In this document: positions 12,534 to 48,756 of the stretch, in pieces
How positions within the stretch are numbered: position 1 is the first letter of the stretch
How the letters are laid out: each line of letters opens with the position of its first letter
NCBI GenBank assembly: GCA_000467715.1
Contig: AJFK01000983.1
Coordinates: 1-64,000 of the forward strand
Direction: 5' to 3'
DNA length: 64,000 nucleotides
From: Hysterium pulicare CBS 123377
Lineage: Eukaryota > Ascomycota > Dothideomycetes > Hysteriales > Hysteriaceae
The notes under the pieces: generated by a model
Databases searched by the model: none
Seen by the model: the letters and a program-made list of their open reading frames with translations, nothing else
What the model was told of the DNA's origin: nothing
Position numbers and translations under genes: made by a program

Positions 12534-15500
12534 TCACTCATCATAGTCCTCTCGTCTCCTCCAGCCCCTAACACCCAACGTCCAATCTTTCGGCGCCTGA
12601 TCCTGCGGTCCCTGCTGCTGCTGATGTCCTTGTTGCGGCAACGGAGCAGGTGCACCTCTCTCCCGCTCCCTCCTTATCATATCGTCTCTGAATCGTGCAT
12701 CTCTGGCCAGGAAATCCTCATTCCGCATCCTAGCCTGGTGTGCGACTTGTTCTTCTCGGATCCGTTCCGCAAAGCGATCGGATTGCGGGTCGCGCGGCTG
12801 ACCCTCCCGCTGATAAGCTTCGCGTAGACGAGCTTGATGCGATTCCTCTTGTTGTTGGCGATATACATTGTCGAGAAGAACACTATGTGGATGCTGTAAG
12901 CTCGGGTGCTGAGAATGTTGTGGTGGAGGCTGGGAGTGTTCGTGTCGAGAGAGAGGAGTGTGTGAGCGACCTGGAGGGAGGTAGCCTCTGTCTGGTGGAG
13001 CTTGGGATGTGTATCGCAAGTCTTGAGTGGATTGGGGCGGGGGAGCGCCACCACGAGAGTGAGAGCCCGGCAGCATGGCTTCGCGTTCGCGCATTAGCAT
13101 ATCGACTCTTTGACCTAATTCTCTGCCGACATCACGTTCGCGGTTCCTTGCGTCAAATTCGATGTCTCGCGCTCGTAACTGTTCCGAGATACCCGATGCC
13201 CGGAGCTGCTGATGTTGATGCGGTGGCAGTCCTTCGCTTGGCGTTTGAGGATTTGAATAGGCCAGGTTGGTGTTGTGGTTTTGTGCGCGATCGTTTATAC
13301 TACGTGCTTGCATTTCTTGTTGCTGAACATGACTAGTGTGTAGGTGGGGACTTGGTCGCATACCCACAGGTCCTGAAGGCTGAGAACTAGTCCCTGGAGG
13401 ATCGACTTGGGCATATGGATTTGGTTGGAGAATCTGTGCTGTACCAGGTCCTTGCTGAGCATGCTGGATGGGATTAGGAGTGAGGTTATGTCGTGGTTGC
13501 TGAGAAGGGGCTTGTGTTAAGCTAGGCGTTCGCGAATGCATGTGAGGAGAATGTGCGAAAGAACCGTGAGGTGGCGGTGATGGATTGTGTCGAGGAGCAT
13601 TATGCTGTGCAAAGACAGAACGATGGGAGCCAAAAATACGAGACTCTGGCAGATTCGGTTGCGCAAGCGCAGGATGCGGCGAGCTTATTTGAGGACCTTG
13701 TTGAGACTGCGCTTGAGAAGGGTGGAAAGGCTGTCGAGGTGGCCAGCTTTCACGCGGTTGTTGTCGCGTGTTTGGTGGCCCTTGGTCACGGGTAAGATCC
13801 ACGACCTGGCGGCCTTGCGGAATCTGGGATTGGGACTGTTGCTGGGTATACATAGGACGGGAGTACGCAGATTGTGTGGTGGGTACTTCACCGTACACAT
13901 CTCGTCGAGGCAGTGATTGTGATATCGGAGGTGGTGCAATTGGAACTTGCTGTTGCGGCGTTGGAGTGTGCGATAAAATGCCCTGATCGCTCGGTCTCTT
14001 TCTTCTTGGCTCTTCCGGCTCGGCGTCATTTAGAAGAGACATAAGGTTTGATTTCCTGGGCGCCTCTGCAGGCTTGGAAGGAGCAGTTGTAGGCTGAGCT
14101 GCTGTAGGTGCAGGAGGCATTGAATACTGTCGCGGTTCTTCCTTGACTGGTGGTGTCTGAACAGTCTGTTGGGGAGCCCTCTGCGGTGTAGGCACCATAG
14201 CATTTGGAGCCTGTGTGGGAGCATCAACAAATTGCTGCACACTCGGCTGTTGTTGAGGCGGTTGCATAGATGGCTGCTGTAAAGGTAAGGCGCGAGTTTC
14301 TGGGGATCCGGCAGCAGATGAGATTGGACGAATCTGTGACATGATCTGGGCGGCACTGGGTGGATTCGTTTGATATTGACGTTGCTGTAAAATATCCTGC
14401 GAAAAGCGACGGGCGTGCTGCTGTTGATACCTAGCCTGGCTGTCACGATCTTGTATATGTTCTATTCTAGCCTGCATTTCACGCTCTTGTTGATTGAAAG
14501 GCTGACGGAATGTCGATTCTACCTGCTGCTGTGCATGAGTCTGTGGTTGGAGTTGATGATGAACGGCGCGCGTCAACTGTGGCATCATTGAAGACTGCGA
14601 GGTGGGTCGACCTTCAGCGCGTGGCAGGTCATCCGAGAAATATCCTGCACGAGGTCCTGGCAAGTTTGCCTTGTGTTGAGAATGAGAATGATGATGATGA
14701 GTGTGATGATGCTGAGTCCGTGAGGATTGAGATTGCGGTTGCGTCTGAGCAGGCTGTTGTTGCGGCACGGAAGAGCTTATTTGAGCAGGTGGCTCTGCGA
14801 CTGCCGGAGCCGAGGGTTGACTGGCAATGCTTGGTTTGGCTTGAGCAGACGTAGCTTGGGCGAGAGCGGGGAACCTCGTCGAAGAGAATTGAGGTGATGA
14901 CTGTGCTGGTACAGTTGTTTGCGGAGTTGGAGGGTTCGCTAAATCTGCAACATCGGGAATTGGAGCGAGAGCGCGAGGCGCAGCTGTTTGAGAGCTATCA
15001 TAACGTCTCTTAGCCATGGGCGTCGGAGTAGGAGGTGGACCCATGTCCTCTCCAGTTTGTCTTCGGGCATCCGCTTCTGCAGCTGCTTGCGCCAACTCCG
15101 GAGCAGCTCCGCTTTCTACCAGGCGTTGATATTGATTCTTAACCTGAAATAAGGGTTAGTAGAAAGGTACATAAATTGATGGAAATAATGCGCAGTGAAG
15201 AGACGGTAGAGCTGAGAGTAGAAATCATCGTTACCATCGTCTGTGTTTTGGTACCCATATGGTTTGCAATTGCGGCAAAATCGGTACCAAAATGCGCGAT
15301 ATTTCTCTTGAAATCAGTCTGTTCCATGACAGACCAGTAGCTTGAGGGTCCAGCTCTTTGCGGTGCATGGGTCTTCGGCCGTTCGGATATCAAAGTACCT
15401 AAACCTGCCTGACTAAGCAAGTCATCTTGGTACGCCATTTGCTCCTCTAATCCCTGGCCCGGGTGTCCAGTTGATAAAAATTGTGCCTCTTCCATCGCTC

Positions 15501-18500
15501 GCCTGCCCGCACCATCTTCTGATTTTAGCCCAAGTAGTTTTTCCTTTCGATCCATCTTCATTGGAGAGCCGGCTGGGGCAGCAGCAAGAGGCTGATTTTT
15601 TGGTCGCCTGCCGGGTTTTTCCTTCGCCAGCTTTCCACGTTTTCCGGTCCTCTCTGCTGCGCCATCCAAGTTATCTTGTTTTACCCCACGGAGTCGTGCT
15701 GGTGTTGGTGCTGGTGTCACAGCCTCGATTTCCGATTCCGCACCAAACGTTGGCGCCGCAGCGCGCCTCGGTCTTCCACTATCGGTCATAGCAAGGGGCA
15801 TTAGTCCATCGTCACCATAAAGTTCGGGCCTCTCAGCATTTGCAGCAGATCCGCGACCACGGCCTGCTGCTGCTCCTCCCCTCGTCTTTCTATATCTTCG
15901 TTTTACTTTACCTTTGTATTCTCTGCCCCATTTCGTCGCATAGTAATGGTTAATGCAATCCTTGTAGGTACGGTTGGTCCCCGCCTCTTTGTATAGCATC
16001 TCAGCCAGCTTGCCCCACTTCTTCGTATATTGATCTCTATAGTGTTTGACCATAATGATGTGCTCAGTCTCGGTAAAATCGTCCTCTGGAGGTTCGTAGT
16101 GATAAACAAACAAACCTTGGCCTGGTTCTCTTTCGAAGTTCGTATCAGTGAACTGTCGTCGTCGGGCTTCGTATTCAGTCATCTCATATGGTATTCGGGC
16201 CTCTCTCTCTGGGTCAGAGCTGGATTTCCTCGGTTCTCGATCCTTCTTACCCTTCTCTTCCTCAGCAGTCTTCATGGATTCTCTAATAACTTGCTCCAAG
16301 TCATATTCAGTCGCCCATCTCGTCGAGTGAGCACGACGACCTACTGGCTGCTCCAAAATGGGGCCCATGGCAGAAGCACTTGCAACATCAGGCGTAACGA
16401 CTTTTGGGCCGGGCTCGACGGACTGCTGTCTATTTTCTTGATCTTCCTGTTCTTTCTGCTCATCTAATATCTGAACATGAATTCTCCATCTCCGGTATGC
16501 TTCGGCGTACTCTCTGAGCAGCTCTTCGGGATCTTTCCGAGGAGCAACGCCGTCACGTATAGAACCCCGTATCGCTAATATCACGGATTCTGACGGTCCA
16601 GAGCGGTCTTGCTCGAGGTCTGAAAGTGGAGTTGGTGGCCCTTTTCCAAGATAGGGTAAAGTGCTGAGGTCAGGTGTTGATGCTCTGTCTATTGAGACGT
16701 CACGTTTTACGCGCTGTGGGCGTTGGGGTGGCAGCGTTGGCGACGCTTCATCCATGATGACATCATCAATGTCTTCAGCTTTCGGTGTGAGAAGGTCGGT
16801 GGCATTGCTTTCCAGGGGCAGTTGCGCAGAGCTTGGGGATACTATTTCTTCTTCGGGAGCACTCATCTCCTGACTAACAGAGAGATGGTCCGGTCTTATA
16901 TTGCTGAGAAGAATGATCTCTTGTAGGGGCGTATTGGCACGCATATTTGGCGCACTTAGATCAACGAGTCTGGATTCAAGAGTAGCCTTCTCCTTGTTGA
17001 ATTTTGCCTCGGATTCTGCAAAATCTGCCTCGTCCAGATCAAGGTCATCATCCGAATCCGAATCTTCTTCCATAAGTTCCGGTGCTGAGGACGTTGCTGA
17101 TATCGGTGGTTTCTCGACCTGAGGAGACGCTTCACCCATCGATACATCTGACAGACGCCTTGTATCAAGCTGTGCTACTTTTGGTGACACTTTCGAAGGC
17201 TGGAAAATAGATTCTTCTTCGGGCTTGGGTTCGTGGCCGTGTTTGGTTTGTCCAGGCAGTTGCAGCCCGGATATGGCTTGTTCCGAAGTCCGCGCTTCAA
17301 CGCTTGAACCAAGTGTCTCAATTCTTGGGGCTTTGGGTACATTGCCAAGTAAGCGGTCTTTGTCGTCACTTGCAAACTCGCGCTTAGTTGGTATAAGCGG
17401 GGGTCTTCCGTAGGGTGTGACACCGGGCCTTATCCACTGGTTGCTCTTTAAAGGTCCTCCGACCATCGGAGGTCTTGAAGCACCAAATGGCGGCCTGTCA
17501 GGTCCACCATACATCAGCGGCCGTGACCCTATTGGCGGCCCACGATCAGCTTTCGGCCCTGTCGGGATGTGTCCAGTCACATTTTTTGGCGACGTCGTGG
17601 CAATCCGCGGTCCAAGTGGTATTGCACCAGGAGAGACATCTCTAGCTTGAAAAGGGCCTTGAGGCGATCTTCCAAAAGGTTGCGATGGAAAAACATTAGG
17701 CTTTAAAGCAGCCTGTGGGCCTGTGGGAGGATATCGAGGTTTGGGGGCAAGTCCTAAAGGCGGTGAAGTAACCTGATGCCCGCTTTGGGATTTCGATTCG
17801 GATCTCTCCACTAATGGTGGACTGGAGAGTGTTGTCGCAGTAATGGTAGGGCGAGGAGTGGAGAGGTCATTATGGGGCGCTTCAATCACTGGCGGCTTTG
17901 GATCTTGCGATTGAGCGTCGCTGTGAGGCCGATCATGTGTTCGAGTAGCCTTTGGGCCTGTTGGAGGTAGATTTGATAAGCCTGCTGGTATATTTAGCTG
18001 AGCCTTGGGCGCAGTTGAAGGTGCAATGGAAGGAGCGGGTGCAGCGGGTGCAGCAGATGAAGCAGATGGAGCAGATGGAGCAGATGAAACAGATGGAGCA
18101 GGCGGAGCAGATGGAGCAGATATTGCATGGGGTACAGGTGGTGCAGGTGGTGCAGATGGTGCGGCTATGATGGGCTTGGATACAGGCGATTGTTGCACAG
18201 GGTTCCTCCAGACGTTGGAGACTTGGGCAGGAAATTGGGCAGGTTTCGGAAGAGACCCAAACGCAGGCACTTGAGGAGCTTGAGGTGGCGGTGAAGACGC
18301 ACGTTGACCATATCGGTCTCTTGATGCCTCCGCCCGACCAGCGATGAGTTCAGCCTTATCCGATTCTCGCCGTTCTTTAGCGCTCAATGGGTCTGTCGCG
18401 ACAGAGGATCGCCTCGAGAAAGTGTCGTCCCGAGACGAATCTGGAGGGCCCAATCGATCGTTCGCTGGTAGGTGTGATGATGCTCCTGAGTAAGGATGTG

Positions 18501-19314
18501 GGGTCGATGGTCCCGAAGTTCCGCCTGGTGGGATGTGCCGAGTGTCTAAACTCCTCGAGTTCAGGCTCGCAGGGCCTTTGTAACTATCGTAACCTCGCCT
18601 CTCATCGTCCCTCCGATCAAACCTCCGGTCATCGCGTCGATCAAGGTCGCGTTCATCCCGAATCGTATCTCGCCGCAGCGGTTCGCGCGATCTACTCCGC
18701 GGTCTATATGGGTCTCTTCGATCCCGATCGTCAAAGTGATGTCCGCGCCCACGCCCACGATATTCGCCCCAAGTGTCACGTCCTCTGCCTCGACTGAAAC
18801 CTCCGCCACGATAGGATTGCGCACTGCCAGGTGGAGGGTCTGAATAATTCGATCCTGCCGAGGGCGGGCCATCTCTTGAATTTCGCCTCGCACGGCTGAT
18901 GTCAAGATCTCTCGGCGGATAATCCCTTGAATCACGTGAGTCTCTCACCGGCGGCGACCTGCCACGAGGTGAAGGGCGTCTGTCACGTCGATCAAAATCA
19001 CGATCACGATCTGTTCCTCTCCAACGATCTCGAGGTTCCGATAATGGAGGCGCATCTCTCAATTCTCGCACTTCACCTCGGCCAGCGAAGCCTCCCGATC
19101 TTCCGCGGCTTTCACGAGGGCCTGAAGGGACACTCTGCGGCGCACCAGAACTAGGTCCTCGCGGAGGTTCGACTAGTGATTTTGGCCCACGCGGAACATC
19201 TCTTGATGAAGGAAACCCACCTCCGTAATTGGTAGATGCCCGTCTATCCCCATACCGAGGAGGCGACCGATCACGTGGAGGGTATCTGGTGTCAGAAAAT
19301 CTGTTCGAAGACAT
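12534..19314 (-). CDS. snt1: Snt1-like SANT-domain co-repressor (Set3 complex type)
   Basis: Exons 19314-15235 and 15143-12534 are joined across a 91-nt intron and give 2229 residues. The N-terminal ~350 residues are Arg/Ser/Asp/Gly-rich. A long Pro/Ala/Ser-rich disordered region follows, then acidic coiled-coil-like segments. The first SANT domain lies near residue 1080 (DDFTETEHIIMVKHYRDQYT, then KKWGKLAEML, RTYKDCINHYYATKW). The second lies near residue 1325 (SYWSVMEQTDFKRNIAHFG, DFAAIANHMGTKTQTMVKNQ, QYQRLVESG) and is split by the intron. Two SANT domains in a very large, otherwise disordered protein is the layout of yeast Snt1 and metazoan NCoR/SMRT, scaffolds of histone deacetylase complexes. 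The C-terminal 850 residues are Gln/Pro/His-rich with charged helices (MQARIEHIQDRDSQARYQQQ). The intron inside the second SANT domain matches the frame exactly. Assignment to Snt1 rests on domain layout, so it is family-level. Confidence 0.87.
18020..18165. repeat. GC-rich minisatellite inside the Snt1-like gene
   Basis: Imperfect 9-12 bp units based on gcagatgga/gcaggtggt. On the minus strand they encode an Ala/Pro/Ser tract (SAPSAPPAP-type). The unit length is a multiple of three, so copy-number change would keep the reading frame. Confidence 0.75.
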
Positions 19315-20869: not shown

Positions 20870-22136
20870 ATGTCCGCTGTCAATCTCAAAAGCGATTCCA
20901 AGGCTCCCTCCGGCGCCACTGATGCTGTTTTAAAGCCTTCCGAGCCGATTCCGGACGGTGCCAGAAAAGTGCAAGGCATAGACTTTGATGATTATGCCGA
21001 TCGAAGTATTACGGTGGAGGAGCTAGTGGGCGGCATGACCGACATGGGGTTCCAGGCAACATCGATTGGAGAGGCTGTGCGCATTATCAACGACATGGTA
21101 CGTTCTTCTTCCTGCAGTCTCCCAAACACCCTTTATGGAGCACAGGGCTGTGCGGGACGTTCGGATGCGATTACCTACATCTTCAAACGCTGCATTCCGA
21201 AACTATTTAGCCGGAGCCTCACGTGCTGTTTCAAGAATGCCACCTTCGTTTTGTTTTTCGCCAATAATGTTCGCTAACTGTCCATAGCGAGCATGGAGAG
21301 ATCCCGACACATCAACAAAAACCACGATTTTCCTGGGATACACATCTAATTTGATTTCATCCGGCTTGCGGGAAACACTCCGCTACTTAGTGCAGCATCA
21401 CCATGTCTCAGCCATTGTCACTACCGCTGGGGGTGTCGAAGAGGATTTTATCAAATGCCTAGGCGACACTTATCTTGGTTCCTTCTCTACTCCCGGCGCA
21501 GCTCTTCGCGCAAAAGGCATGAATCGTATTGGCAATTTGGTTGTGCCGAACAGCAACTACTGCGCCTTTGAAGACTGGATCGTACCTATTCTGGACAAGC
21601 TGTTGGAAGAGCAGGAGGCTAGCAAAACGACTGACGAACCGATCCATTGGACACCAAGTAAAATGATCAATCGACTGGGAAAAGAAATCAATGACGAGCG
21701 ATCGGTTTATTACTGGGCATGGAAGAATGACATTCCAGTCTTCTGCCCAGCACTAACAGATGGGAGTCTAGGAGATATGCTATACTTCCACACATTCAAA
21801 TCATCGCCAGAACAGCTCCGGGTAGACATTGTGGAAGACATCCGGAAGATCAACACAATCGCGGTTCGGGCAAAGCGGACGGGCATGATCATCCTCGGCG
21901 GTGGACTAGTCAAGCACCATATCGCGAATGCGAATCTCATGAGGAATGGAGCGGAGAGCGCGGTTTACATCAACACGGCGCAGGAGTTTGACGGTAGCGA
22001 CGCTGGTGCGAGACCGGACGAAGCAGTCAGTTGGGGGAAAATAAAGGTCGATGGCGACAGCGTGAAGGTGTATGCGGAGGCTACCGTAGCATTTCCATTA
22101 ATTGTGGCAGCCACATTTGCGAAGCCGAATAGGTGA
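20870..22136 (+). CDS. Deoxyhypusine synthase
   Basis: NAD-dependent enzyme that transfers the aminobutyl group of spermidine to one lysine of eIF5A, the first step of hypusine formation, in the cytosol. Exons 20870-21097 and 21288-22136 give 358 residues, close to the family's ~360-370. Motifs in order: [52 protein letters not shown] (NAD site); [51 protein letters not shown]-type and [13 protein letters not shown]. Lys at about residue 285 in [11 protein letters not shown] corresponds to the catalytic lysine that forms the enzyme-imine intermediate in human DHPS. The intron is unusually long for this window (190 nt). I start at 20870, not at an in-frame upstream Met at 20807, because the family N-terminus begins near there. 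It looks intact and essential. Confidence 0.96.
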
Positions 22137-22889: not shown

Positions 22890-25800
22890 ATGAGTGTCAC
22901 AGCCAGCTCCGCCAGCGTAGAGCCTCCTCCGCTGCTCTTCGGCCAACGTTCGCCATCGCCGCCTTCCTTTTCCTCTCCGCCACAATCCCCAAACCACATA
23001 CACCACACCCAGACTCCTATAGCCTCCCCACCCGCACATGTTATCGAAGACGTCGACATGAATACCTCTACCACACTACCGCCTCCAGCAGGACAAAATC
23101 ATGATCGGGAAGATGCTACAATGGAGGATAGCGATGGTCTACCGAACGGTCATATAGAGGTTGTGCAGAACTCCGCAAATCCCCCGGCTCCTCAGGTAGC
23201 CGTTGAAGTCGCTGCCGTCGATGACGACGTAATGGATACTACGCCCGATAGCGCCCACGCAGAGGTTGTAGCCAATGGCTCTGCTGATGCACTGGCACCT
23301 ACAGAGGTGACGCTTGGAGCTCCTACGCCCAACGGTGTGAGCCAAGATGCTCTGGCAAACAATGACCAGGCAGCAGCTCCAAGCAGTAACGAGCATGAAG
23401 TAGGCTTAATTCGAAAAAGCTCTATTCTGATGCTAATCATTCATAGCCACAACCAGAAACCATCCTGCCAGTGGAGCCACCTCCTCCCGTTGATCCCGAC
23501 TCGCAGCCTCCGACAACTGAACAACCCCCGCCGCCTCCTGCTGACACCTCGCGGACAGACTCTGATTCCTCAGATGAGGATGATGGTAGTCAGTCTTGGC
23601 AGCCCATCGTAGAAGATACATCCACACCCGATGAGTATGAGGTAAAGGAGATAGACGAAGCTGGCGAGGTCAGCGCGTTGGATCGTAAGTCGGATCTCGC
23701 TTTGTATAAGACATTGATGCTTACATTCGTTAGACAAGCATTGGGAAGACAGAGCTTTCCAGCCTCTCGAAGAACCCGAATATGTCGCTGGTGCAAGTGG
23801 CCGTATTGAATGGATCATCGATAACTACAATGGAACCAAAGAGAACCCAAACAAGGAGCTCGTCATGAAGTCACAAATTGCGAGCATCGGGGGCTACGAC
23901 TGGCAGATCAAATTCTATCCAAAAGGGAACGATTCCGATTATCTCAGTATCTACGTAGAGTGTCTCAGCGTCACAAACAAGGAAGAAAAGAAAGATGAGG
24001 AGACAGCGACCGATGATGCGCCAAAGCCAGAGGAGGTGGTCGAAACGAGAGATGCAATACCCACCGACCCGCAAGATAATGTCAAGTCTGATCCACAGCA
24101 TACCCCCCTTCCTCTTCTCGCTTCAGACCCGATTCTTAAACGCCGAAGTGTCGCCGCGCAAGTTTCAGTCGTCCTCTATAACCCTGACGAACCACGGGTA
24201 AATTACTCTCGGACCTGCTTACATCGTTTTTGTACCGGATCGCCAGATTGGGGGTGGACCCGTTTCCATGGACCGTATTACGAAATCCAACATCGCCATC
24301 GCGGTCAACGCCAAGCGCTTTTGAGGAATGATAAACTCGCTTTTACTGGATATGTGCGGATTGTTGAAGACGAGACCGCTTGCTTATGGGAACACCACAG
24401 TCGAGACAATCCTTGGGACAGTTTTGCAATGACTGGCCTCCAATCACTGGCGTTGGGTGAAGGGCAGAGCAGTCCTGGAGGAAATCTCATCTCGGCCATC
24501 GCTTGCTGGATGCTGTTCAAACCATTTAGAATATTCTTGTATCAATTCAAAGTGCCAGATTTCGAGGACGAACCATTGACACGTCCGAAACCACTCATCG
24601 CCGCCTTACAAAAGGTACTGTACATGCTAAGGACTCAAGTCAAGCCTGGAGCTGGGCCTGTAGGGCTTGAGGACGTCATCGATGCCCTTGAATGGTATGG
24701 AATCACACAGACTCTCGACAAGCATGATGTCATCGAAATTTGGGAGGTCTTACGGTGTAAGATTGAAGAGGAACTGCGAGACACTCCTTGCGCCCATGTT
24801 CTCGATGACCTTTTCGGAGTGAAGAAGGATTATGTGTCCGGAACGCCCAGCTATCGAGTACCCGTGAAAGGCATAAACAATATGCAGGAGGCCGTGAACA
24901 AAGCTGGCGACCTGCTACATCCTAACCAGGCTCTACCTCAGCTGTTGACTGTGGAACTCGAGAGACAAGACTTCAACACAACTTCACGAATGTGGCTGAA
25001 ATTGACGAAAAAGGTCGCTCTGGATGACCAAATCAATGTGAGAGATACAGACTACACGTTGTATGGATTCATAGTTCACAAGGATAATCTACAGTCTTAT
25101 CTCTACCATCCAGTGCTACGACCTGAGGGTCCTGGCACGAAATGGTACAATTATACCGACAGCAAGGATGAAAACATGGTCAAGTGTTTGACGAAACGTC
25201 AAGTCAATGCCTACGAAGGAAGCGGTGCGTCAGACAGCCAAGGGGGAAAGGAAGCTGTCGCATACATTGCTTTGTATGTGCGAAACGATGTCGCCAGCCG
25301 TGCCTTTCGTCATGAACCCGAAGCCGAGAAATGGGACATCCCTGAAGATCTAGCCACGTTGGTCGAGAAACAGTCCTCAAATGGAAACATTCCACCTCCA
25401 ATTCTTCCTGAGCCGGTAGCAGAAGATTCTAAGGAGGTTTCCGAAAAGGAAGATGAAGTCACCGCCGATGCCCCTCCGCCGAGAGCCCACAAGTTCCAGG
25501 TGATCGACTCCAGAGTATTTCTCGAGCATGAGGGCCCGGGAACATTCGATGCGTACGATCCAAAATGGCAACCAGAGAACTCGGAGTATGTCTACGCCGT
25601 TGAGCTGATTGCTACGGATGGCTGCAAGGAAGTCCAGGCAAAAGTTGCCTCCGTTATCAAAGGCATCCAAGATCCGCGCCAAGTCAAGTTCTGGTTTCTG
25701 GATGCACAGAGAGGCACTGTCAACCGACCAACCTTGGTCTCTACAGGACAGATCGAGTATTCCAGTGGAAGTGATCATGACATTGACGCATCGGATGATT

Positions 25801-27188
25801 GGTCTCTTGATAAGATCGAAGATGATTGGGGGTATTATCGTCTCTGGATCCATGTTGTTGACTTTGATAAACTCCCCGAACTACCAAAAGAAGTGCCACC
25901 GGAGTCGGAAGAGCCTCAACCGTCGTCAGAGAACCTCGAAACATCTTCGACCCCATCGCAGGCTCCTCCAGCGCCGGATGTGTCCCTGGCAGAGGTACCA
26001 GCCGTGGTACAACTCGAAATTGAAATTGCGCCGCCGTCCGAGAATCCTCGAGCATTTGAAGATACTCCAATGAGTGAAGCTGACGAAGAGGAACCGCAAC
26101 CAACTACCCAGACGCAAGAGGATAACCAGGCTCCAGCACCCGAAGCAAACTCAGAGCAGACCATGGAAGTCGAAGTATCGGTCGACGCACCTCTAATGAC
26201 AGATCCTCCCGCCGTTGACGTTGTCATTCCCATCCCTCCTCCAGCAGATGACACCGAAATGGGAGGAACACAAGACCTTCCGCCGCCTCCACCGGTAGCC
26301 GAACTTACAAATGCGCCGCCCCCACCGCCTCCAGCACCTGTCCACATCATTCCCAACCAAATCTATTTCTTCCTCAAATTCTTCGAGGCCGAGTCCCAAA
26401 CACTCACTTCCCGGGGCTCACACATAGCTCTCAAATCCGCTCGCATCGACACCACCGTCTTATCTATCCTCGAACTACCTCCCGACACAGCCATTGAGCT
26501 CCATGAAGAAGAAGATCTAACAACAACACACCCTCTCCGTCTTCGCCGCTCCTTCTCCCAAAACGACCTCCACAACACCTGCATCATAATCGTCACAGTC
26601 CCTCTCACGGAAGAACAACGCACCAGCCTAGCAGACCGTGCGGCATTCGCAGATCCCCAACCCTACCTCGCCTTCCGCGCCGAGGCGCGCAACTTCCCCA
26701 CTCGCATCGCCGGCCACTTCACATACAACTACTTCTCCTCAGAGTACTACAAAGGCGACATTCTCAACGGCCACCAACACGGCCAAGGCCACCGCATCTA
26801 CCACTCCGGCGCCACCTACATAGGGAACTTCCGCCTCTCGCGCCGCCATGGCCACGGTCTGTACACGTACCAAAACGGCGACACGTACGACGGCGACTTC
26901 GCCTCCGATCTCCACCACGGCATGGGCACTTTCGTCGAAGCCTCGACCGGAAACACGTACGTGGGCGGCTGGAAACAAGACAAGAAGTTCGGCGAGGGCG
27001 TCACGCATTGGAAGGTGGCGCAGGAGACAGAGCGGCTTTGTAGGATCTGTTGGGAGGAAGGCGCCGAGGCGGCTTTCTATGATTGTGGGCATGTGGTTGC
27101 TTGTTTGGGGTGTGCGCGGCGAGTGGACACTTGTCCGGTTTGTAGGAAGAGGGTGCTTAGTGCCATGAAGCTTTATTATGTGGCGTGA
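22890..27188 (+). CDS. MATH / USP7-like pseudo-deubiquitinase / MORN / RING-finger protein
   Basis: Exons 22890-23399, 23447-23684 and 23734-27188 give 1400 residues. Regions: 1-265 disordered and acidic; ~273-470 MATH/TRAF-like (GRIEWIIDNYNG, YDWQIKFYPKG, WTRFHGP, CLWEH); ~485-770 a USP fold aligning with USP7/Ubp15 (LISAIACWMLFKPFRIFLY, LIAALQKVLYMLRTQ, KHDVIEIWEVLRCKIEEEL, YRVPVKGINNMQEAV, YTLYGFIVH, then KWYNYTD and AVAYIALYVR); ~835-960 and ~1130-1240 USP7-type C-terminal ubiquitin-like segments (QIYFFLKFFEAESQTL, IELHEEEDL); ~1256-1340 about four MORN repeats (YKGDILNGHQHGQG, YIGNFRLSRRHGHG, YDGDFASDLHHGMG, YVGGWKQDKKFGEG); ~1352-1387 a C3HC4-type RING (CRICWEE, DCGHVVACLGC, CPVCRK). 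The expected catalytic Cys box (GATCYMNS in USP7) reads SPGGNLIS and the GGHY histidine box reads LQSYLY, so it should lack protease activity. The RING suggests E3 ligase function. Fungal relatives may exist under names such as 'MATH and UCH domain protein'. Confidence 0.9.
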
Positions 27189-28301
27189 GTTGAGTGGGGT
27201 GGAAGATGATGGGGACGGAGATGGAGTGGGAGCTGAGGGTAAAAGCAGATGGAGTTGAGACAAGATTGTTCATTTTCCAGGAGTTAAAATTGAGGAAACT
27301 GGGTTTACTGGATAGGGATTGGGCTGGGGTGTTTTCTTGTTTTTGGATGCTCCACTTTCCTTTTTTTTCTGCTCTCTCTCCCCAACATACCATACTCGTA
27401 GGTAGGATCTGCTGTTCTTTCTCTCCACTTTCATTTTCACCGGCGTCGATGCGGATGAGTAGCCAGCGCGCGCTCTCAGTCTCAGTCTCAGTCTCGGGCT
27501 CAGCACGGTGCTACAGGAGTCCAACAAAGTCCTTCCAGAAAGACCAGTAGTTTACTTTTTCTCTCTTTTTTTTTCGAAAAATGATTTAGGGTTAGGCAGA
27601 TTTTTTTTTTCTTTTGCTTATACGTTTCGATTCATGATTGTCCTTTTTTATAAGCATATATGAAACACGTTTGTTTCGGAATCCAACGTAGAATATAACT
27701 TCTTCTATATGGGCAATTTTGATGCAGGCATTCGTGTCGTGTCATGTTGTGCGTTTTGCTACGTTGCTTGTTCAATATCAATGGATTGAGATTTCAAATT
27801 GCACGGTTGAGTGAGGAAGTGGGTGAGTGAACTGCTTTTGATATTCCAGAAACACCCTGATTTGCGCCTATTGCGACTTCATAAGGCGGCGCGAACACTT
27901 TTGTTCAGCGCGGCGATGGTGGATCCTGGGTAGCGTAGCTGTCCGATCATGATGCAGGAAGAAAGAAAACAAGATAAGCCCGAGCTCGAATGATGTGATG
28001 ATGGGGATGGGATGTAGGGATGACAGAGTGAATGGGAAGAAATGGGAAAGGGGGGTTGTGAATGTGGGGATGGAATGCCCATGTCCTTGAAATGCGGAAG
28101 CCGTATCCAAGCCACAGAAAGAAGAAAGAAACAGAAATGGGAAGGGAAGGGACAAGAATCCGAAGAGCCATGATCCAGATGCACCCCGGTCAGGAAACCC
28201 AAACGAGGCCTTAGCGTCGCGTCTCATTGTATCCAGAAGTTGCGAACCAAATCAACTCCCGGCACTGATGTCGCCGCCAATGATACCACTGCCATGACCG
28301 C
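27189..28301. other. Convergent intergenic region with T-rich tracts
   Basis: About 1.1 kb between converging genes. T-runs near 27,560-27,650 are probably in 3' UTR/poly(A) signal surroundings. Frames at 27194-27550 (+) and 27868-28227 (-) have no family features. Confidence 0.6.
27475..27504. repeat. Short hexanucleotide repeat (ctcagt)n
   Basis: Three perfect and two imperfect copies of ctcagt in tandem, in non-coding sequence after the MATH/RING gene. Simple microsatellite. Confidence 0.8.
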
Positions 28302-37337: not shown

Positions 37338-39128
37338 CTAGCGCCGATAAATATTCTCTCTCTGATCTCTCTCCCTCGTGTTCCGATTATCTCTTCGTTC
37401 CGGACTGCGAGTTCTGCTTCGAGTGCCGCCTCTCCGATAATCCCGTCTCGTGTCTGCTCTATCCCGGTCCCTGTACTCTCGAACACGATCATCCCCGCTA
37501 TGTCCTGAGTCTCTTGATCCTCGTCTTCCATCTCGTGGTCTCTCGTCGGCTTCTCTTGATCTCCTATCTCCTCCTCCCCTCTGTCGTGCTCCCCCATCTG
37601 CATAGCTTGGGATGTAGGTATCCCTATCCCTCGCGCCACCTGCACGGTGAGAATCTCTATCCGCAGGAGGATTTCGATATTGATGTGGAGGTGGCGGCAG
37701 CGGGTGGCGTCCCTCTCCGGGTGGTGGAGGGAGATTGTTGTGGCGAGTAGCGGGTGGGCCGTCATAGGGCAAACCTTGGTTTCTATGAGATGGAGCTTCG
37801 TTTCCCCAATGTGGCTGATGGCGAGGTGGAGGAGGTGGTGGAGGTCGATGATCATATGGTCCTCCGCGTCTGTTGTCATATCCACCGGGACGTTGGCCTT
37901 GAGTCCCGGGTGGTCCTCTATCCTGCGGCCATCCGCCACGCGGTGGTCGATCGCCGTTCATGAATGGTCCACCGGTTGGAGGTGGTCCAGAACCTGTCCA
38001 TTCGCCATTCGGACCCATTCCAACGGTGCCGCCGGCAGGCGCAGGAGGTAGTGCTTGTTTGTGGCCGCGTGCATTGCGACGATCTAATTCGTGAGAGTCT
38101 TGGAAGGTGGGGATGTCCTCCTCGCGCATAGGTTTGGGATCTAATTTGAAGTAGGGATGCTCAATAGCATCAATAGCATTGATACGTTTTCTCCAGTCCA
38201 ATTTGAGAAGTTCGCTGAGCAGGGAGATGGCAGCAGGCCCCTGTTCTCTGAAAACTTGTGAGAGGCTCCCTGTCCGTTGTGGAAATGACTTGACGCCCTC
38301 GCAGCCTGGAAGAAGATTCCAACCGGGCATGTTCTCGTCGTTTGGTGATCCAACAAGGTTAAATATTATTTCAGCCTGGTTCAAGTCGCTTTGGCCTGCG
38401 AGGATAGGTTTGCGCTTGAACATTTCGCCGAAGACACAGCCCGCGCCCCACATGTCGATCGCAGGAGTATATCTTCTGAGTTGGAGAAGCAGTTCCGGAG
38501 GGCGGTACCAGCGGGTGACAACCAGGGTAGTATAATCCCGTCTGGCCTCTCCATTCCCCTTGCCAGCCAGGGGAACTGGTTCATCGTAATGGCGCGCCAA
38601 ACCAAAGTCTGCAATCTGAAGTCGACCTCGATTGTTGATGAGAAGGTTTGCGGCTTTCATATCTCGGTGTAGGATGTGGTTGTCGTGTAGGTATCTGAGG
38701 CCCTTGAGTAATTGGATCATATAGCATTTGATTTGCGGTTCGGAAAAGTGAACGTCGGGGTTATCCAGGAGACCAGAAAGATCATGATCCATATACGGAG
38801 TAACCATATAGAGTATTGCCCTTTTCCTTCCCTCGCCTTTAACCCTCTCTACAGCCATCTCATCTAGCTTCAAGACGTTGTCGTGACATAGCATCTTCAG
38901 CAGCTTAATCTCTCGGAGAGCTGTGATTGGAAAGCCATCCTTCTCATTATGCATCAGAATCTTCTTCAACGCGACGATTGCGCCGGTTCGTGTCTGTCGT
39001 GCCTTGTGAACTTCGCCGAATGTACCCTCGCCTAGCTTGCACATGAACTCGTACTCGCCGATTTTGGAGCAGCCTTGGAATTTGCGCGTGATGCCCTTGA
39101 CCGGAGCGGTCGTCGTAGTGGACGTCAT
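37338..39128 (-). CDS. bur1: Bur1/CDK9-type cyclin-dependent kinase
   Basis: Transcription-elongation kinase of the P-TEFb/BUR group that phosphorylates RNA polymerase II and Spt5 with a cyclin partner, in the nucleus. Single exon, 596 residues from the Met at 39128; an in-frame Met at 39170 would add 14. Kinase motifs in order: GLY loop [21 protein letters not shown] (catalytic Lys); [16 protein letters not shown], the PITALRE helix typical of CDK9; [12 protein letters not shown] (HRD-Asp); IADFGLAR (DFG); a T-loop ending [31 protein letters not shown]. The kinase domain covers roughly 20-345. The C-terminal 250 residues are Gly/Pro/Arg-rich with RD/RS-like repeats ([24 protein letters not shown]-like), as in other filamentous fungal Bur1 proteins. 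All catalytic residues present. Confidence 0.95.
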
Positions 39129-39593
39129 CCTGCAGGATGGAAATAGGGCACGTTGAGACGGAGTTGACACCGAAAATCGCCTGCGAATTGTCGATTAATG
39201 GTGGTGGACGAAGGAAGGTTCTAAGAAATTGCGCGGCTCAACATGTGAGGAGATGGAGAGTGTTCGTTCGAGGGTGTGGCGGGGAGCAGAGCTGCCATAA
39301 GTATTAGCAGCACAATAGGGATTTTCTATTCATAATGAGGGAGGACAATAGGAAGAGATTCACTGTTCACTTGGAAGAATGTCAAGGTTGATCCGGGGAA
39401 CGCGAATCGCCGAACATGCGCTAAACCGAAACGGATCTCTGCCAAGTTTCGGTTCACTTCAACGTCAATCGAACGACATACGACTGTCGCCGCCTACCAT
39501 TGAGTCAACCACATTCGTCTGGTATGTACTTTTCTTGGGGAAACACATTTTTTGGAGAGACTGATCAAGCTTAGAGCTCTAAATACATACGAA
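39129..39593. other. Divergent promoter region, Bur1 and NDUFB2-like gene
   Basis: No independent gene. A short plus frame at 39379-39564 (MSRLIRGTRI) looks like a presequence, but joining it to the next exon creates a stop, so it is treated as 5' UTR. The 39511-39570 stretch looks like a 5' UTR intron (GTATGT donor, CTTAG acceptor). Confidence 0.5.
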
Positions 39594-46697: not shown

Positions 46698-48756
46698 TCA
46701 CGTCTCCGCCGCCGTCCCCTCACCCATCTTCCTCTTCTTACCTCTGAACTTCCCCCTCGCCTCCACCTTGCCTTCTGCAGGCAGTACTCTTGTCGCCGTA
46801 AAAAGATATCCCTCCGCACCGCCTCGACTCGTCATCATCGGATGCGTGCGTCCCGGTAGAACCTGCCAATGCCTAGCTCTCGCAGTCTGCAGCATAGGCG
46901 CCAGGAGTAAGGTCGGATTAACCGGGAAATTTGAGTCAGTTTCATCTTCACTGACCGTCCCGTTGACATTTTGCTCGACCTTGCCATTGACCCCTTTCTC
47001 CTTCTTGACATTTTTCTCTTTCTTGATGTCTGTCTTGACCTCTTCCTGGTTTCCCTCAACGGCGGTGTTTAGATTCTGCTTTGCCACATACGCAGCTTTT
47101 CTCTCCTTGCTGTAGAAATCACACAGTTCGACAAGACTCTCTACGTCATGTCTGTAGACTACCACTTGGCCGCCTCCCCTCACAAGCGGAACCAACTCCT
47201 TCAATACACTAGCTGGCTCCATGACACTAGCGACAACCAGCCCATCATACCCTCCCGCTCTAGTCTCGTCTACAACCCTCTTCACCTTCTCCCATCGCCG
47301 CCTCTTCTTATAGTAGGCGCCACGTTTACTACTTTTCCAGGTCGAGAGGACGGAGTCGGGGATGATGGGAGGTTCGCTGTAGGATGGGTCGGAGGCGGGA
47401 TCGAGGAGTTGCAGCCAAGAGAGGGATTTGAGATGCGTGTGGAGGGGATGTGTGGGTGTGGGGTTAGAGGCGTCGAAGGAGAAATATTTTAGGAGGCCGA
47501 GGTTAGGTTGGTTGTTTGAGTGGAGGAGGGTTAGGGTGTTTGTTTCAGCGGACATTGCGGCAATGTGAGTGCGAGGTGACTTGCGGGGTTGTTGGGGTTC
47601 GCCATTGCAGGTGAGAGATTGGCCTGGTCCTGTGGAAGTTGCTGGAGCTGTGATGTCGGACTTTTCGTTTGTCAATATGCCACCATCTGGAAGAGTGGAT
47701 CCTACTATCGGCTGTATATCGCCTGAGGCATCGGCCATGACTGTGTCTGCTTCATGTTGATGCTGATCGCCGTTCCTTGGTGGTTCATTCTGGTCTGGCG
47801 TCTCTTGACTGTCTATGTCCTCGGCATGCTGTTGTTCGACTGCCTCGTCTTCTTCATCTGATTCTTCGTGTGGGTATAACGTGCCCATCTTCTCGGCGAG
47901 AGCAGCCACCACCAGGCCTCCGGTGTCATCGACTACCAACCACCTTCCGCCCCCGACAAAGTCGTTGCCGTTTTCGGAGGTAATGGCACGGCTCGAAGCT
48001 CCACAGTGAACATTTGCCCAGCTGATGATCAGTCCAAGCATTTCCTCCCTTAGCTCCATAATCTTATGCGATTCCCTCTCCGTGATGTACTCTGTGAGCA
48101 TACCCACGTCCAGAGGCAGGACAGTGAATCGGCGCAGGTATTTTTTCGACTTCCGTAAGGTATATTTCGCCAGGGAGAACGATGTCTTCTCATCGATTGC
48201 CATATGCGATGCCATTATCCTAGCTATTATGTCCTTTCCGGAGCCCGTTCCGGCTTTTTTGAGCTCTTCGATCTCTTCCATGGACAGAGTCTGCCGTGAT
48301 GGATCGTCGACAGTCATTCTGTTGCTTCGCATTATGACCTCGCCATCCTCTCCCACGATATCGAATTCCACCCCACCATCGCCATTGGTAGATTCCTCCC
48401 TCGATTCCGCGGGCGTGGCATGGTCGCCAGAATTGAGAGCTTCGGCATGTAATTCCGAGGCGGGCACGACTCTCAGCTCAGTTCGCTCTTTGCCTTCATC
48501 CTTATCCAGGAGCTCAAAGGTGAAGTAATATGGTCGTCCGAGCAACAAGTTGGCGGGAAATGATCCAAACTTCCCAATATTTACAGTTCTGCAGGCAGCC
48601 GTCAGAATTTCTCTGGTGCATCAATACGAGTTCGGTAACAGTGGATGCTCACTCCAACTAGTACACATACGTGTTTGGTTGTATTTCAAGGACCTTGAAA
48701 GTGCCCGAGGGTAGTCGGAGAACTATATGGGTGTTGGGCCGGATGTAGGAGTGCAT
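46698..48756 (-). CDS. trm6: tRNA (adenine58-N1)-methyltransferase non-catalytic subunit Trm6/Gcd10
   Basis: Partner of catalytic Trm61. The heterotetramer makes m1A58 in tRNA, including initiator tRNA-Met, in the nucleus. Exons 48756-48671 and 48588-46698 give 658 residues. The N-terminus MHSYIRPNTHIVLRLPSGTF, then NIGKFGSFPANLLLGRPYYF and TFELLDKDEGKE, matches the Trm6 N-domain. Middle motifs: RQTLSMEEIEELKKAGTGSG, AIDEKTSFSLAKYTLRKSKK and RRFTVLPLDVGMLTEY. The C-domain has a degenerate methyltransferase fold (WLVVDDTGGLVVAALAEKMG, then GYDGLVVASVMEPASVL and LVPLVRGGGQVVVY). A long acidic/Gln insertion near residues 240-330 and a Lys/Val/Glu-rich insertion late in the protein (KKEKNVKKEKGVNGK) are probably disordered. 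Divergent from the MINDY gene. Confidence 0.93.

Follow-up and report, generated by a model that had tools for sequence, protein, structure and literature searches.

A diverged USP7 paralogue of Hysterium pulicare with altered catalytic positions and a MORN-RING C-terminus

A single gene at positions 22890-27188 (+ strand) of the window, by which we mean the whole stretch of 64,000 nucleotides analysed from Hysterium pulicare CBS 123377 (contig AJFK01000983.1), appears to join the front part of the deubiquitinase USP7 to a RING finger. The question raised by this locus is whether its product still removes ubiquitin, serves as a scaffold, or has turned to adding ubiquitin instead.

Gene model and domain order

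The gene is composed of three exons separated by two short introns and encodes a product of 1400 amino acids; the coordinates and residue numbers (~496, ~702) of the initial annotation agree with this spliced model. Both introns are predicted, having been picked by their GT-AG borders and the reading frame, and for intron 1 an alternative AG at 23456 likewise preserves the frame. The N-terminal 249 residues are proline-rich and disordered-looking by composition, and exon 3 houses every recognised domain (MATH, pseudo-USP, Ubl2, MORN and RING). The features are:

22890..23399, + strand: exon 1, residues 1-170, P/S/A/D-rich disordered N-terminus (gene model, composition)
23400..23446, + strand: intron 1, 47 bases, GT-AG (frame and GT-AG enumeration)
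23447..23684, + strand: exon 2, acidic/proline-rich disordered stretch (gene model)
23685..23733, + strand: intron 2, 49 bases, GTAAGT...TTAG (frame and GT-AG enumeration)
23734..27188, + strand: exon 3, 1150 stop-free codons, then the stop codon
23808..24410, + strand: MATH (TRAF-like) domain, residues ~275-475 (MATH_2 E 8.4e-15 for the stretch alone; score against intact USP7 attained by 0 of 1000 shuffles)
24411..25301, + strand: pseudo-USP domain, residues ~476-772 (UCH E 1.5e-9 for the stretch alone; blastp against intact USP7 E 2e-20)
25491..25880, + strand: possible degenerate Ubl1, residues ~836-965, non-significant
25881..26351, + strand: proline/glutamate-rich linker, residues ~966-1122 (24% P, 14% E), disordered-looking by composition
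26352..26675, + strand: Ubl2 of USP7 type, residues 1123-1230 (USP7_ICP0_bdg E 1.7e-10; blastp against intact USP7 E 2e-8)
26745..27020, + strand: four MORN repeats, residues ~1254-1345 (Pfam on the stretch scanned alone; PDB matches)
27039..27143, + strand: RING finger, residues 1352-1386

Along the whole protein Pfam gives, in this order, MATH_2 (E 9.2e-13), UCH (E 3.2e-8), USP7_ICP0_bdg (E 1.7e-10), MORN (E 8.4e-10) and zf-C3HC4_3 (E 8.5e-12). All five families exceed their curated cut-offs, and the order MATH, USP, Ubl, MORN, RING proposed for this protein was therefore right. The MATH domain is interrupted by a low-complexity insert of 60 residues (~333-392), and the UCH profile is matched only from its position 22 onward, that is, behind the Cys box. 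A PDB search with the MATH-USP part alone returned weak matches to USP47 and Ubp6 only (best E 0.076), and structure models made without relatives are of low confidence, with a mean pLDDT of 36.5 for MATH-USP and 31.1 for Ubl2-MORN-RING.

More than one C-terminal ubiquitin-like segment had been expected. Ubl2 (residues 1123-1230) is one such segment, and the candidate Ubl1 (~836-965) falls short of statistical support: its alignment score with intact USP7 was attained by 149 of 1000 shuffles, hmmsearch gave E 9.2 (in a set of 1000), and hhalign gave E 0.089 at a probability of 0.6%, with five other stretches of the protein at E 0.32-0.91. The same region matches the ubiquitin-like family ULD_3 at E 0.0082, under the cut-off of that family.

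The upstream neighbour on the same strand (window 21351-22136) encodes a deoxyhypusine synthase (PF01916, E 5e-110). On the - strand are found a 1391-codon open reading frame with one C-terminal Myb-like domain (window 15139-19314, E 1.5e-8), and, at 37338-39170 and 46698-48548, a protein kinase and a Gcd10p-family protein. Nine open reading frames of 16 listed were scanned with Pfam, and for five of them nothing matched at E 0.001.

The intact USP7 of the same genome and the altered sites of its paralogue

The genome searched comprises 37.2 Mb in 596 contigs. It contains 25 exon-level matches to UCH, two MATH_2 loci and two USP7_ICP0_bdg loci, and both pairs consist of the window gene and a second gene on contig C25. 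The exons of the latter were joined into a model of 1092 residues, the first exon of which is perhaps incomplete. Its product matches human USP7 over nearly the full length (568.7 bits, E 2.5e-169) and carries MATH_2, UCH, USP7_ICP0_bdg and USP7_C2 (1.1e-60). With an intact USP7 present, the enzyme has been retained, and what the window holds is an additional copy that has diverged. By blastp, residues 298-772 of the window product align with residues 76-536 of the intact protein (21% identity, E 2e-20), and residues 1126-1227 with 712-816 (E 2e-8). For MATH, USP and Ubl2 alike the alignment score was attained by none of 1000 shuffles. When the 1150-residue product served as query in a tblastn-type search, the genome yielded only the gene itself, the MATH exon of the intact USP7 (E 5.6e-7) and a further RING (E 0.0069). 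Relatives were also sought in a collection of bacterial and archaeal contigs, where none of 23 pattern matches was a relative, a result uninformative on fungi. The protein has the MATH-then-USP order of the USP7/Ubp15 group, with MATH_2 and UCH over cut-off and, judged by these alignments, the window gene is an old USP7/Ubp15 duplicate, now a diverged paralogue.

The proposal of a USP7-derived pseudo-USP with a MORN-RING end is thus borne out at the level of sequence, and the intact USP7 strengthens it. Of the suggestion that an enzyme had become a scaffold, the part concerning a diverged USP7 copy stands, while replacement of the enzyme does not, since intact USP7 persists elsewhere in the genome. 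The sites at which the copy was compared with USP7 are:

24246..24251, + strand: D421-W422, aligned with human USP7 D164-W165, substrate pocket pair kept
24471..24482, + strand: former Cys box, S496-G499, lacking Cys in both registers
24831..24923, + strand: shortened fingers, residues ~616-646, with two gaps (12 and 24 residues) relative to intact USP7
25101..25103, + strand: L706, where the catalytic His would stand (blastp alignment)
25140..25181, + strand: former Asp box, residues 719-732, with T724 or D728 where the catalytic Asp would stand
26562..26582, + strand: N1193-C1199, at the place of the acidic loop 758-DELMDGD-764 of USP7 Ubl2 (loop role described in the accessible part of PMC4457826)

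The catalytic Cys falls on G499 in the gapless register (score 10) and on S496 in the gapped one (score 13), which BLAST, MAFFT and global alignment share; the global score was attained by none of 2000 shuffles. The missing Cys noted in the initial annotation is thereby upheld, and the register given there, with SPGGNLIS at ~496-503, is ambiguous. Likewise His is absent as claimed, and its place, formerly sought by aligning the GGHY box with LQSYLY, is corrected to L706. For Asp, the gapless register leads to T724 (score 12) and a register with a 4-residue insertion, scoring better (35 minus 14), leads to D728. The loss of catalytic boxes therefore holds for Cys and His and is ambiguous for Asp, where D728 is possibly kept; loss of the entire triad was considered and rejected on this ground. 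The Cys-His-Asp triad typical of the USP7/Ubp15 group is not present as such (S496 or G499, L706, Asp ambiguous). USP homology with the catalytic residues gone, the mark of a pseudo-deubiquitinase, is seen at Cys and His, which makes the protein a putative member of this class. As the fingers that grip ubiquitin are short by 12 and 24 residues, about 36 in all, the usual ubiquitin grip is probably gone as well.

USP7 targets bind either a MATH pocket (D164, W165) or a Ubl2 pocket (D762, D764), according to the accessible text of PMC6203733, PMC4457826 and PMC4624675, and D164/W165 are called essential for MATH-dependent binding in that of PMC6203733. The intact sister retains the equivalents of all four residues. 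In the window protein the acidic pocket of Ubl2 is lost, D762 being replaced by N1197 and D764 by C1199. Since the D-W pair is kept at 421-422 and the acidic pair is gone, the MATH domain is the likely substrate route; its targets may coincide with those of USP7 in part or not at all, and the idea that the protein shares all of them is weakened on these alignments. A Ubl2 still binding the Lys-motif partners of USP7 was considered and rejected.

The MORN-RING end and the proposed function

After Ubl2, where USP7 has Ubl3-5 and USP7_C2, the window protein has four MORN repeats and a RING finger; USP7_C2 was not found in it by Pfam at E up to 1. On balance we favour a function as a RING E3 ubiquitin ligase that recognises substrates through a MATH domain of USP7 type and possibly opposes USP7. 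The MATH domain would grip the substrate in a pocket of the type found in USP7, and the dead, finger-shortened USP fold together with Ubl2 would act as a rigid body or partner platform with no enzymatic role. The MORN repeats would position or multimerise the molecule, and the C-terminal RING would engage a ubiquitin-loaded E2 and pass ubiquitin to the substrate held by MATH, in opposition to intact USP7 wherever targets overlap. That the protein is an active ligase, binds an E2 and shares substrates with USP7, and what MORN does in it, is what we infer from the domains. A bold and doubtful extension is that the USP7 duplicate became its own antagonist, reading the MATH-type degrons of the intact enzyme and ubiquitinating what USP7 protects; this opposition is drawn from the kept D-W pair and the shared descent, and from nothing else. 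Held just as tentatively is the evolutionary summary by which MATH recognition was retained, the active site lost and MORN-RING gained, giving a writer from an eraser.

Besides its Pfam match (zf-C3HC4_3, E 8.5e-12), which confirms the RING first noticed by eye, the RING finger has eight zinc ligands in C3HC4 spacing (C1352, C1355, C1367, H1369, C1373, C1376, C1383 and C1386). It ranks top of the 24 zf-C3HC4_3 matches in the genome, and its nearest PDB RING is that of XIAP (E 2.6e-10), with all eight ligands aligned. From so intact a RING the coupling to a ligase may fairly be inferred. Against the favoured reading stand the many RING-bearing proteins that lack proof as ligases, the low overall identity to USP7 (21%), the 60-residue insert in MATH, the Asp that may be kept and the loss of the Ubl2 pocket.

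An unlikely but substantial alternative is a regulatory pseudoenzyme, which would bind intact USP7 or its targets and compete or organise, with the RING serving mainly for self-turnover or dimerisation. IAP-type RINGs do dimerise, and an intact USP7 is at hand in the same genome. Pseudo-deubiquitinases are moreover known as activators or scaffolds (PMC10919355, accessible part). The retention of all eight zinc ligands, however, goes beyond the needs of a mere scaffold.

The MORN repeats open a further possibility, to which we give rather less weight: a ligase tethered to membrane or cortex, for instance at septa or the tips of hyphae, in which MORN binds lipid or cytoskeletal partners and USP7-like substrates are unimportant. 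When the region was scanned alone with Pfam, four clear stretches were found, the number roughly estimated beforehand, and they match the MORN repeats of MORN1 (E 5.5e-26), FAP266 and RSPH1 chains in the PDB. The window locus is also the sole MORN locus found in the genome (one match out of four candidates), although a six-frame search may miss split repeats, a limit which also lessens this argument. Four repeats are few, and it is contested whether MORN repeats bind lipid, both of which count against tethering.

Returning to the USP fold, an atypical active deubiquitinase using other residues seems very improbable. C507, H708 and D728 do lie near the catalytic boxes, and USP39 and USP52, once filed as pseudo-deubiquitinases, have since been reconsidered (PMC10919355, in the text available). 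However, C507 is 8-11 residues beyond the aligned place and H708 two beyond, the fingers are short by ~36 residues and USP7_C2 was not found.

Composition changes close to the Ubl2-MORN junction. Expected GC3 was derived from the codon usage of the window gene and seven window open reading frames for the same amino acids. Over residues 1236-1345, covering the MORN repeats at window 26700-27020, GC3 is 0.836 against 0.479 expected and much higher than in the remainder of the gene; 0.836 is reached in none of 5000 simulations, by none of 539 windows in ten other open reading frames of the window, and by none of 1006 windows in 28 open reading frames elsewhere (some of these loci overlap), where the maximum is 0.76. 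It is raised already over residues 1181-1235 (0.673; 6 of 5000 simulations) and is not raised over the RING (0.564; 1211 of 5000). The high GC3 may reflect later acquisition of MORN, conversion or local selection. A 174-codon antisense open reading frame over the MORN-RING part (window 26739-27263, - strand) probably just follows from the high GC3.

This break is what speaks for a pair of adjacent genes or a wrongly joined exon, with MATH-USP-Ubl and MORN-RING as separate products, which we regard as scarcely credible, since GC3 falls back over the RING, the whole lies in a single stop-free exon, and in-frame ATGs occur at residue 1092 (before Ubl2) and next at 1313 (in the third MORN repeat) with none between, so that a separate MORN-RING gene is unlikely and the proposed single chain is favoured.

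If the ligase with a USP7-type receptor is correct, the recognition module of a ubiquitin eraser can persist while its chemistry is swapped to the opposite. The protein would then be a natural ligase derived from a deubiquitinase, comparable with engineered targeting chimaeras, and the competition of two paralogues for the same short motifs would become directly testable.

Comparison with known systems

The closest known system is USP7/HAUSP and fungal Ubp15 (MATH-USP-Ubl1-5), with which the window protein shares MATH, the USP fold, Ubl2 in order and the D164/W165 pair. It differs in having no Cys or His at the catalytic places, short fingers, no acidic pocket in Ubl2 and no USP7_C2 found, and in the added MORN and RING. 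The partnering of USP7 with the RING ligase MDM2 is a parallel to the one-chain arrangement by analogy only.

In the pseudo-USPs USP52/PAN2 and USP39, as in the window protein, the usual catalytic residues are missing from a USP fold; these two are not known to derive from USP7 or to have MATH, MORN or RING. IAP-type RINGs (XIAP, cIAP, MYLIP) are C-terminal as here, XIAP being nearest in the PDB, but the window protein has none of the BIR, FERM or other partner domains of these proteins. TRIM37 and the TRAF proteins also combine a MATH binding module and a RING ligase module in one chain. In these, unlike the window protein, the RING comes first, B-box or TRAF zinc fingers are present, and neither USP fold nor MORN is known.

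Entries called 'MATH and UCH domain protein' occur in gene lists of Aspergillus, and the family may thus have been annotated already, if not studied. Among the literature matches listed, from a search that took in few subscription papers, no study of a MATH-USP-Ubl2-MORN-RING architecture was found. A review of fungal deubiquitinases gives one UBP15 in Magnaporthe oryzae and, in its accessible part, makes no mention of MORN or of inactive members (PMC9599802). Pseudo-deubiquitinases themselves are a known kind (PMC10919355, accessible part), and A20/TNFAIP3 is a known case of one chain that carries both a deubiquitinase fold and a ligase module, as described in the available text of PMC9110840. 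There, unlike in the window protein, the deubiquitinase is of the OTU fold and reported active, and the ligase is an A20-type zinc finger (ZnF4) rather than a RING (PMC9110840).
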